Shown: piece by piece, positions 39,406-43,049 of the stretch
Numbering within the stretch: position 1 is the stretch's first letter
How the letters are laid out: every line of letters starts with the position of its first letter
Origin: Frigoriflavimonas asaccharolytica
GTDB lineage: Bacteria; Bacteroidota; Bacteroidia; Flavobacteriales; Weeksellaceae
Assembly: GCF_013294015.1 (NCBI RefSeq)
Contig: NZ_JABSNO010000020.1
Location: 1 to 64,000, forward strand
Direction of reading: 5' to 3'
DNA: 64,000 nt
Program-made: the position numbers and the translations under genes
The notes under the pieces: generated by a model
The model's database searches: none
Seen by the model: the letters and a program-made list of their open reading frames with translations, nothing else
What the model was told of the DNA's origin: nothing

Positions 39406-40161
39406 CTACACCAACCAATCCTTAAATTCCTTCACGCGATCTCTGCTTACAGAAATTTCTTCCTCTGGTTGAAATTCTAATTCTACCTTGTAAGTTGGCG
39501 ATGTGTGGATGTTTTTAATATAATTTAAACAGATAATAAACTGGCGGTTTACACGGAAAAATTGCTTCTCATCCAAAACCTCTTGCAATTCGTCTAAAGT
39601 GAAATCCGTCGGATAATTTCTTTCTTTGGTTTGTAGATATACAATCTTATTTTCGCTGTAGAAACAAGAAACTTCTTCGGTTTGGATGATTTTTAAATTA
39701 TATCCAATCTTTACTAAAATTCTGGAAAGATTTTGCTTTTCCTCTTTAATTAAAGATTTAATTTCCAGGGTTTTATAAGATGAATCTGAAGGCAAGAAAC
39801 TTTTGTATTTATCAATGGCTTTTTCTAGATCTTCTTCCATTATGGGTTTCAAAAGGTAATCTATAGAATTGAGTTTGAAGGCTTTCAAAGTATATTGATC
39901 AAAAGCTGTGGTGTAAATCATAAAACTTTTGGTGGGTACTTTTTCAAAAATATCAAAGGACAAACCATCGCCCAAAACGATGTCGGAAAATATCAAATCT
40001 GGATGCGCATTTTCTGCAAACCAATCTACACCTTCTTCCACGGAATGTAGTGTTGCAACCAACTGCAAATCAGGAAATAAACTCAATAGTCTTTCTAGCT
40101 TTCTAGCTGCTGGTTTTTCATCCTCAATGATGACGGTTTTTATCTTATTTTCTGTTTGCAA
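39406..40161 (-). CDS. LytTR-family response regulator
   Basis: 251 residues. The receiver domain (1-120) has the acidic pair (IIEDEKPAAR), the phosphoacceptor Asp in DLIFSDIVLGDG and the Lys in LLKPI. The C-terminal LytTR DNA-binding domain has FYSENKIVYLQTKERNYPTDFTLDELQ (split across strands) and RVNRQFIICLNYIKNI. It is the partner of the kinase at 40777-42096, with two 2TM genes between. The likely target is the direct repeat at 43021-43049. Confidence 0.9.
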   Translation of the reverse strand: MQTENKIKTVIIEDEKPAARKLERLLSLFPDLQLVATLHSVEEGVDWFAENAHPDLIFSDIVLGDGLSFDIFEKVPTKSFMIYTTAFDQYTLKAFKLNSIDYLLKPIMEEDLEKAIDKYKSFLPSDSSYKTLEIKSLIKEEKQNLSRILVKIGYNLKIIQTEEVSCFYSENKIVYLQTKERNYPTDFTLDELQEVLDEKQFFRVNRQFIICLNYIKNIHTSPTYKVELEFQPEEEISVSRDRVKEFKDWLV

Positions 40162-40173
40162 TAGATTTAATTT

Positions 40174-40485
40174 TTACAATTTGTAGTTCCTGTTTTTTTC
40201 CATTATTTCTTGTATTTTTCTTTCTTCCCAATTATTTCCTAGAATAAAATTAGGCAGAAAAACACTCAATCCATGAGCTGAAAGTCCGATTCCCCAGAAG
40301 AATAAAGTTACAAAATTTTGCCATTGAAAATAGGTTTCTCCAGGTTTTAAGTCTTGAAAATTAAGATAAACAATCAATAAATTTACACAAACATAAATTA
40401 AAAAATGAATGTAAAATCCTTTGATGCGTTTAACCCTCTTTTTCGCTTCCAAATACTTGATATTGTCTTCATTAAAATTTTCCAT
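40174..40485 (-). CDS. 2TM-domain protein (free)
   Basis: 103 residues with two membrane segments (about 25-46 and 58-78) and the 2TM-domain tail motif WGIGLSAHGLSVF, then NNWEERKIQEIME. The 2TM domain (PF13239 type) is often linked to LytTR or LytS genes in Bacteroidota. Its role there is not established; sensing or kinase coupling are guesses. It overlaps the neighbouring 2TM gene by 14 nt and ends 12 nt before the regulator gene. Confidence 0.8.
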   Translation of the reverse strand: MENFNEDNIKYLEAKKRVKRIKGFYIHFLIYVCVNLLIVYLNFQDLKPGETYFQWQNFVTLFFWGIGLSAHGLSVFLPNFILGNNWEERKIQEIMEKNRNYKL

Positions 40486-40771
40486 AATTAGTTTGTTTTA
40501 GTTCTTTATCCATCATTTTACGTTCCCAATTTCCATTAAAAAAGAATAGTTTTGCACTTTTTATGGCTAAAATGATGCCCCAAATCCAAAATATAACAGA
40601 GATGTTTCTCTTATCCATAAATATGATATCGCCAGATAAATAATACCTTCTCATACTATATGCTGCAAATATGATGATGAATATTGCAAGACTGGTATAG
40701 AATTTTTTCAATTTTTGAACTCTTTCTTTCGCAAAAGAATAATCGATTTCTTGTTTGGTTAGATTTTCCAT
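40472..40771 (-). CDS. 2TM-domain protein (free, diverged)
   Basis: 99 residues with two membrane segments (about 24-43 and 55-77) and a diverged 2TM tail: IWGIILAIKSAKLFF then NGNWERKMMDKEL. The conserved His of the tail is replaced by Lys. It overlaps the second 2TM gene by 14 nt and begins 5 nt after the kinase stop. Confidence 0.78.
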   Translation of the reverse strand: MENLTKQEIDYSFAKERVQKLKKFYTSLAIFIIIFAAYSMRRYYLSGDIIFMDKRNISVIFWIWGIILAIKSAKLFFFNGNWERKMMDKELKQTNYGKF

Positions 40772-40776
40772 ATTTG

Positions 40777-42096
40777 TTATTGTTTTTTATTTAAAATTTT
40801 CTGAATTTGCTTCTCTTCCCAATCTTTTCCTACACCAAATGTTTTCAATGCGTGCATTCCGAGACCAATTCCCCAACCAAACATCGGCCACCAAAACCAT
40901 AGGTAATTAGAAGATGTGAAGAGGTTTATAAAAATTAAAGTCGGTATTACCAGACAATAAGAGGTTAAATTCGAGTAGAAGCCTTTCAATTCTTGTACTC
41001 TTTCTGCTGCGTTTTGGTAAGCGATGGCATCGCTGTTTTTTTGTATTTTCATGTTAGAAATTTTATTTGTTAAGATTGGAATTTTTACTCGGAAAAATTC
41101 GTTAGATTTTTCTATCGAAACATTTAGTTTAGATAATAAGGAATAGCGTTGCACGATGTTTGAAAGCCCAATTCCAGCGCTTTCTTTCATCTGCTCTCTT
41201 TGTTGTAGGTTATTTTCTATCAATAAATATCCGTTTTCTGAATAGATTTTTATGAATAGTGGTTTGCCAGAAGTTGCAAAATTGTGTTTGATGCAATTTT
41301 CTAATAAAAGCTGCAAGGAAAGCGGAACTACAAATTTTTTCAGCATATTTTCCTCTACTTGAAATTCAAAATTTACGCTGTCTTCAAATCTTGTTTTTAA
41401 TAGTTCACAATATGTTTTTGCAAATTCTATTTCTTCTTCTACGGTTATCAATTCTTTGTCTTTTTGTTCCAAAACGTAGCGGTATATTTTGGACATTGAT
41501 GCGGTAAATCTTTGCGCTTGGCTGGGATTTTCATCTATTAAAGAACTTAAAACATTTAAAGAATTAAATAAAAAATGTGGATCTAATTGATTTTTAAGAC
41601 TTTCAAATTGTGCATTAGCAGATTTTGCAATAAATTTTTGCTCTACAATTTCTTTTTTTGAGGCTTTTTTCCATTCATCCATGAAACTTTTTGCATGCAG
41701 AATGGCAGAAATTAAAAGCGCGATGTTAATGATCAACCAATTTATAGTTCCCATCGAACCGGAAAGAAATTGGGCAGGATTTGCTTTTTGCAACCAAATG
41801 AAATTTACGTAGTTGCATCCTAAAACTAAAACGACATTTACTAAAATTGTTGCAATAATTCCCGTGGTAATCCTTGTTTTCGTATCTTCTATCCAAGAAT
41901 ATTTGGTGTTTAGAAAATCATTGAGCAAACCGTTTCCAAAAGTGAAAACTGATGTGTATAAAAATGCTACAAATAAACTTAAAAGCAAATTCTCTATGCT
42001 GCGATCACTTGTAAAAAAGGTGAAAAAGAAAGTTCCGGTTGCAAATGAAATCAAAAGCATTGTAGAGATTCTTATTTTCATTTTTGTTGTTTGCAT
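40777..42096 (-). CDS. LytS-type histidine kinase with C-terminal 2TM domain
   Basis: 439 residues. Four N-terminal membrane segments (about 12-28, 38-58, 78-100, 118-134) precede a LytS/YehU-type kinase with His174 in QLDPHFLFNSL. The ATP-binding part is short (LLLENCIKHNF, then GIGLSNIVQRYSLL). Residues of about 350-439 are a third 2TM domain (FGWGIGLGMHALKTFGVGKD, then WEEKQIQKILNKK). The fusion ties the 2TM family to this signalling system. The start could be Met6; that does not change the reading. Confidence 0.87.
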   Translation of the reverse strand: MQTTKMKIRISTMLLISFATGTFFFTFFTSDRSIENLLLSLFVAFLYTSVFTFGNGLLNDFLNTKYSWIEDTKTRITTGIIATILVNVVLVLGCNYVNFIWLQKANPAQFLSGSMGTINWLIINIALLISAILHAKSFMDEWKKASKKEIVEQKFIAKSANAQFESLKNQLDPHFLFNSLNVLSSLIDENPSQAQRFTASMSKIYRYVLEQKDKELITVEEEIEFAKTYCELLKTRFEDSVNFEFQVEENMLKKFVVPLSLQLLLENCIKHNFATSGKPLFIKIYSENGYLLIENNLQQREQMKESAGIGLSNIVQRYSLLSKLNVSIEKSNEFFRVKIPILTNKISNMKIQKNSDAIAYQNAAERVQELKGFYSNLTSYCLVIPTLIFINLFTSSNYLWFWWPMFGWGIGLGMHALKTFGVGKDWEEKQIQKILNKKQ

Positions 42097-42159
42097 TCTT
42101 TTTTATTTTTAATGATTTGAATATTTATCGCAGCAATAGATTGTATGCAGCAATAACTT

Positions 42160-42948
42160 TTATTTTTTTATCAATTCTGCTATCGCTTTCAGCACTGCGT
42201 CTTTATCTTTTGTAAATGCTTCTAGATGATCTCCATCGTATTTCAAAAATGTTTTTGGATTTTGTGCATTGTCAAAAACTACTTTTCCTTGCGATATCGG
42301 TATCGTTTTATCTCCATCACTATGGATGAATAGTTTTGGAATCGTCACAGTTTTAATATCTTCTTTTGCAGCATAGGGAAATGCAATCGCGTTGATGTAG
42401 CTTTCATACTGCGGAGCAAAAATAATAGCAACATCATTGAAAGACGAGATGCAACCATCTAAAACTAATGCTGTAATTTTCATCGAGTTGTTTTTTGCTA
42501 AATGCGTTGCAACTTCGCTTCCCATTGATGCGCCATATAAAATTACTGGCTTATTTTTAACTTCTTCTAGGTTTAGAGAATAATCTAAAAATTTCTGACC
42601 ATCTTTTGCAATATTTTGATGTGTAGGAATTCCTGTAGATTTTCCATATCCGCGAAAATCAACCATTAATACTTGATATCCTGCTTCAACCAAAGGTTTC
42701 GTCATAAACATGTAGCTAGAAACATTTCCGCCAGAACCGTGGAAAAATAGGATTGTCGCTTTTGCTGTAGTTTTTGGTTTGATGAAAATTCCCGTGATGG
42801 TTTCTGTATCTACAGGAATTTTGAAATCTGTATAATTCAAGCCTTCAATGATTTTCAATTCTGTGCTTGGTTGATAAAATTTATCGTCCATTTGTGCAAA
42901 ACAAATTTGAGATAAAAAAAGTAGGATAATTGCGATAGTAGTTTTCAT
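42160..42948 (-). CDS. Secreted alpha/beta hydrolase
   Basis: 262 residues from the ATG at 42948, which places a signal peptide at the N-terminus (cleavage near CFAQ, residue 18); the frame is open 16 codons further up but that part has no family match. The nucleophile is in GASMGS, the oxyanion stretch is FFHGSGGNVSSY, and the late Asp and His are in FIHSDGDKTIP and DGDHLEAF. It resembles BEM46-type serine hydrolases; the substrate is unknown. It leads the hydrolase-kinase-2TM-2TM-regulator run with a 63-nt gap to the kinase. Confidence 0.85.
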   Translation of the reverse strand: MKTTIAIILLFLSQICFAQMDDKFYQPSTELKIIEGLNYTDFKIPVDTETITGIFIKPKTTAKATILFFHGSGGNVSSYMFMTKPLVEAGYQVLMVDFRGYGKSTGIPTHQNIAKDGQKFLDYSLNLEEVKNKPVILYGASMGSEVATHLAKNNSMKITALVLDGCISSFNDVAIIFAPQYESYINAIAFPYAAKEDIKTVTIPKLFIHSDGDKTIPISQGKVVFDNAQNPKTFLKYDGDHLEAFTKDKDAVLKAIAELIKK

Positions 42949-42978
42949 GATATTTAATTTTTGGTTTTTATTATGCTG

Positions 42979-42986
42979 TAAAGATA
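42979..42986 (-). promoter_or_regulatory. Possible -7 box of the hydrolase/LytTR run
   Basis: TATCTTTA on the minus strand deviates from TAnnTTTG at the last base and has no good -33 partner. That fits an activator-dependent promoter, as the operator ends 34 nt upstream. Confidence 0.4.
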
Positions 42987-43020
42987 TATGCACCAATCAT
43001 CAATTAAAAATTTATCAAAC

Positions 43021-43049
43021 TGAACGGTCAATTTTCAATACTGAATCGT
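43021..43049 (-). promoter_or_regulatory. LytTR-type direct-repeat operator
   Basis: On the minus strand ACGATTCA (43042-43049) and ACCGTTCA (43021-43028) are separated by exactly 13 nt, a 21-bp period on one DNA face. The LytTR regulator BtsR (YehT) of E. coli binds ACCRCTYA-N13-ACCRCTYA, so spacing and sequence agree closely. It lies just upstream of the hydrolase gene that heads the LytS/LytTR run, at an activator-like distance. Confidence 0.7.

Follow-up and report, generated by a model that had tools for sequence, protein, structure and literature searches.

Results

A direct repeat upstream of a hydrolase-kinase-regulator run

The window, by which we mean the whole 64,000-nt stretch of Frigoriflavimonas asaccharolytica DNA analysed here, carries a run of genes on its minus strand. 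The first gene (42160-42948, ATG at 42948) encodes a 262-aa secreted alpha/beta hydrolase with an apparent signal peptide (Pfam Hydrolase_4/Abhydrolase_1). It is followed by a LytS-class histidine kinase with a C-terminal 2TM domain (40777-42096; His_kinase PF06580 and 2TM PF13239), two 2TM proteins (40472-40771 and 40174-40485; both PF13239), and a LytTR response regulator (39406-40161; Response_reg and LytTR), the proposed operator-binding protein. The gaps within the run are 63, 5, -14, and 12 nt. A perfect 9-bp direct repeat, TATTGCTGC-N8-TATTGCTGC, lies in the hydrolase-kinase gap (42130-42155, minus strand), and it is absent from the same gap of the two other hydrolase-led operons.

Upstream of the run, the initial annotation had placed an 8-bp direct repeat with 13-nt spacing on the minus strand, and its sequence and coordinates are exact: the distal core ACGATTCA at 43049-43042, the 13-nt spacer GTATTGAAAATTG, and the proximal core ACCGTTCA at 43028-43021. 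The half-sites are better described as 9-mers ending in TTCAG, the distal one ACGATTCAG (43041-43049) and the proximal one ACCGTTCAG (43020-43028). With the consensus taken from 126 sites, the unit becomes RCNNTTCRG-N12-RCNNTTCRG and covers 43049-43020, the proximal half-site lying 21 nt, or two helical turns, from the distal half-site. LytTR sites consist of a pair of repeats, direct or inverse, each about 9-11 nt long and spaced by 11-13 nt, and they share this overall geometry without a common sequence (PMC4847170). The geometry of the repeat thus fits the LytTR-type operator that had been claimed for it.

The repeat in its window and genome

Judged from the window alone, the repeat is weak evidence, since the window holds 1,089 pairs of 8-mers with a 21-nt period and an identity of 6/8 or more, and since 1.4 matches per window to the consensus with two mismatches are expected by chance. 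Imperfect repeats of this kind are common, and a chance resemblance without function would be one way to read them. Scored with the position matrix trained on sites upstream of the kinase (see below), the window site reaches 27.8 bits, against 9.4 bits for the next best site in the window. This matrix was trained on part of the loci that were scanned, so a leave-out model gives the cleaner test of the window site. For this purpose we used a sequence-only covariance model of the operator and promoter, built from 43 sites of relatives with the window's site excluded. Run over the organism's own 3.4-Mb genome, it ranks the window site first, with a score of 42.8 bits and E = 1.6e-10; the match in second place reaches 17 bits.

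The genome-wide search for further repeats that the initial annotation had proposed therefore returns one strong site, before the hydrolase-kinase run. The genome has seven LytTR genes, and the motif was not found within about 1.5 kb of the other six, so the regulon predicted here is this one run. Further targets in the same genome were considered and rejected, because there is one strong site and the TonB-dependent receptor that follows the operator in relatives has no close ortholog here (best identity 28%). The small secreted protein found beside the operator in relatives has only more distant relatives here (38% and 28%). A strict BtsR-like pattern has no match in this genome, and a degenerate one with mismatches has 99 matches versus 70 for the reversed control, so that chance hits dominate.

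Conservation at orthologous operons

The motif was followed through 61 Weeksellaceae loci of the LytS-kinase/2TM/LytTR operon with a position matrix trained on sites upstream of the kinase. Sixty further genomes contributed loci 11-19 kb long, and 1.07 Mb was scanned in all. At 20 bits or more, 126 sites were found, compared with a mean of 0.05 for column-permuted matrices. At least one site stands at or near the orthologous operon in 61/61 Weeksellaceae loci. Nearly all loci have RCNNTTCRG twice, 12 nt apart, usually some 100 nt ahead of the kinase start or of the run's first gene; in a few, the position directly before the kinase holds only a degraded site or none. The spacing is invariant: at a threshold of at least 22 bits, 117 sites have 12 nt between the 9-mers, and any other spacing gives 0-3. 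In addition, when ORFs of 100 aa or longer are considered, 112 of the 126 sites lie outside them, although the non-ORF share of these loci is only 17%. Three sites of 24-26 bits (L146 +6613, L165 +6019, and L170 +6016 from the kinase start) have no -7 box at the usual place; a protein with a glycine-rich tail is encoded about 200 nt downstream of them, and they are possibly inside coding sequence.

Co-occurrence with the kinase

A strict operator pattern occurs in 88 of 148 family genomes, and the reversed control gives far fewer matches. Among the 85 genomes that have a close ortholog of the kinase (E of 1e-150 or below), 76 contain it, versus 12 of the 63 that lack such an ortholog (Fisher p about 9e-19, a value that ignores shared ancestry). 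Where the kinase relatives are more diverged, the strict pattern is mostly absent. One genome (G075) has five strict-pattern matches, though its kinase relative is only distant.

These distributions bear on which regulator would bind the site. Any of the seven LytTR proteins of this genome could in principle do so, the overall geometry being common to LytTR sites (PMC4847170), and the run would then be under cross-regulation by another LytTR regulator instead of feedback. This seems improbable, as only the window's operon has a site among the LytTR loci of the genome, the sites of relatives cluster round this operon with 108 of 126 on its strand, and site occurrence follows this kinase. The LytTR regulator is in the same run as the site in the window and belongs to the orthologous loci where the site recurs, and we take it to be the protein that probably binds the site.

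Coupling to the promoter

Downstream of the operator, a -33-like TTT (43007-43009, minus strand; ATT[T/G] in relatives) begins 10 nt past the repeat, and the -7 box TATCTTTA (42979-42986, minus strand; consensus TAnnTTTG) begins 33 nt past the 9-mer operator. The latter is the weak -7 box that had been noted about 34 nt downstream; it reads from 42986 to 42979, exactly 34 nt past the second 8-mer. The coupling is general. TAnnTTT starts exactly 33 or 34 nt past the operator in 119 of the 126 sites, and offsets 10 and 11, the position of the -33 element, are 94% T among the 126. The flavobacterial sigma-A -7 box is TAnnTTTG at -12 to -5 (PMC9723704). On the scale of that study, the half-site centres fall near -50 and -71, and the start site of the window's promoter is expected near 42974. 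A generic sigma-70 scan added nothing for this phylum.

An activator usually sits just upstream of the -33 element, clear of the -7 box and the start. Since the operator stops about 10 nt short of the -33 element and keeps a constant distance from it, the arrangement suits an activator that touches the polymerase. Position alone is no proof of sign, and the regulator might instead repress from the site, giving negative autoregulation. We consider this unlikely, because the site occupies the usual place of an activator and because the -33 and -7 boxes of the window depart from the consensus. Activation from the operator is accordingly the sign that we prefer.

Tracking with the hydrolase gene

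A repeat missing upstream of orthologous hydrolase genes had been named at the outset as grounds for abandoning the operator. We examined 33 close relatives of the hydrolase in 32 family genomes, the window's included. Four of these genes adjoin the kinase operon, and 29 lie on a different contig or at a distance of more than 100 kb. The motif precedes 33/33 of them, so the proposed operator withstands this check. In each case no other site in the examined stretch scores higher; the motif reaches 13-31 bits and lies 59-148 nt before the gene. TAnnTTT follows exactly 33 nt past the motif in nearly all; the box at this position reads TAnnTTC in three genomes (G142, G133, and G125), and a weaker box, CATATTTG, is found in G065. 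A site that stays with the hydrolase even where the gene is unlinked from the regulator is difficult to account for other than as a regulatory site that acts in trans. That the site is kept before unlinked hydrolase orthologs, at a constant distance from the promoter, refutes a chance resemblance, against which all comparative tests speak and whose probability we regard as practically negligible.

We also considered that the site might be specific to the hydrolase gene. This was rejected, since most relatives keep the site without a hydrolase beside the kinase. In one genome (G136; loci L137 and L251), the hydrolase and the kinase of a single run each come with a separate operator copy, and so does an additional hydrolase gene that is unlinked. 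The pattern suggests that the hydrolase gene moved together with its promoter.

Genes downstream of the proposed operator in relatives

The genes directly downstream of the 126 sites belong to a small number of families: kinase or 2TM operons follow 68 sites, a 740-aa TonB-dependent receptor 34, and the linked hydrolase 3; a 213-aa secreted protein follows 16, one of which is a second site close by. The family of the 213-aa protein has no Pfam match. In many relatives (L120-L179, for example L142, L143, and L172), the operator stands before the receptor and the 213-aa protein near the kinase operon. It is also found upstream of the orthologous operon in Lutibacter, where kinase identity is about 43%. 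In Lutibacter and its kin, the site is followed by a DUF2141-like or small secreted protein and then by the kinase run. The label DUF2141 is our own naming and is presumed rather than taken from Pfam. In five loci of another family of the order, probably Flavobacterium (L216, L219, and L225-L227), the operator lies between a TonB-dependent receptor and a DUF2141-secreted-protein-kinase run.

Discussion

We propose that the repeat is very probably the operator of the LytTR regulator at 39406-40161, an activator site for positive autoregulation of the hydrolase-kinase-2TM-2TM-regulator run. As judged by its family, the kinase (40777-42096) would sense a signal and phosphorylate the regulator. 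Two regulator subunits would then bind the half-sites, whose 21-nt separation would put both on the same helical face. Bound directly upstream of the -33 element, the regulator may recruit RNA polymerase to the weak -33/-7 promoter, as the fixed geometry implies. The whole run would be transcribed together, so that the system activates its own synthesis plus that of the hydrolase. In relatives, the same operator would drive the operon as well as the TonB-dependent receptor, the small secreted protein, and the unlinked hydrolase genes.

The LytTR-type operator of the initial annotation is strengthened by the fixed promoter spacing that is conserved before the orthologous operon. The feedback loop predicted there also fared well: the operon of the regulator is headed by its own site. 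We regard the predicted loop as well supported, because the site is conserved, none was found near the other six LytTR genes, and it tracks the unlinked hydrolase.

We lean slightly towards a broader interpretation, in which the operator marks a Flavobacteriales-wide LytTR regulon that has not been described before. The 2TM-tailed kinase system would coordinate a TonB-dependent receptor of the outer membrane, small secreted proteins of the 213-aa and DUF2141-like kinds, the secreted hydrolase, and 2TM membrane proteins as an uptake or envelope-response module, which in the window's species may have shrunk to one self-activated operon with the hydrolase.

To our knowledge, only a small number of Bacteroidetes regulators have a defined operator. 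In the literature searched, most of it readable without a subscription, no description of a Bacteroidetes LytTR operator or of this regulon was found. A paper on a Riemerella two-component system was set aside as a precedent, since it concerns a system of the OmpR/PhoP type. In the present case, sequence from two families is enough to read off the operator, its targets, and its exact distance from the -33 and -7 elements. This offers a ready reporter promoter, a testable regulon, and a route to the signal of a widespread, uncharacterised two-component system.

The half-site of E. coli BtsR is ACC[G/A]CT[C/T]A, with 13-nt spacing. Against this consensus, the half-sites of the window match at 7/8 and 6/8 positions. 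BtsS/BtsR (YehU/YehT) is also a LytS/LytTR-type pair, as here. The likeness to BtsR that had been claimed is at most one of geometry and half-site; the sensor domain of the kinase and the targets differ. A 5TMR-LYT membrane sensor domain is characteristic of the BtsS/BtsR-type kinase (PMC10653868). Pfam finds no 5TMR-LYT in the window kinase, only His_kinase and 2TM; unlike BtsS, it has a C-terminal 2TM domain. The target of BtsR is the pyruvate transporter gene (btsT), whereas the site described here heads the regulator's own run. Assignment to the BtsS/BtsR system was rejected because the kinase lacks 5TMR-LYT and the only strong site of the genome is not before a pyruvate transporter.

YpdA/YpdB of E. 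coli is likewise a LytS/LytTR pair, and its direct repeat GGCATTTCAT also has a TTCA core. YpdB, however, has the single target yhjX in E. coli, in contrast to the several predicted targets in the relatives studied here, which include the regulator's own operon. In general, the operators of AgrA, YpdB, BtsR, and other LytTR proteins resemble the present one in having direct repeats upstream of the target promoter together with a LytTR regulator. The predicted operator is thus a further case of a known kind, one that differs from LytTR operators generally by its own consensus, RCNNTTCRG, by its coupling to the Bacteroidetes -33/-7 promoter, and by the other genes of its regulon.
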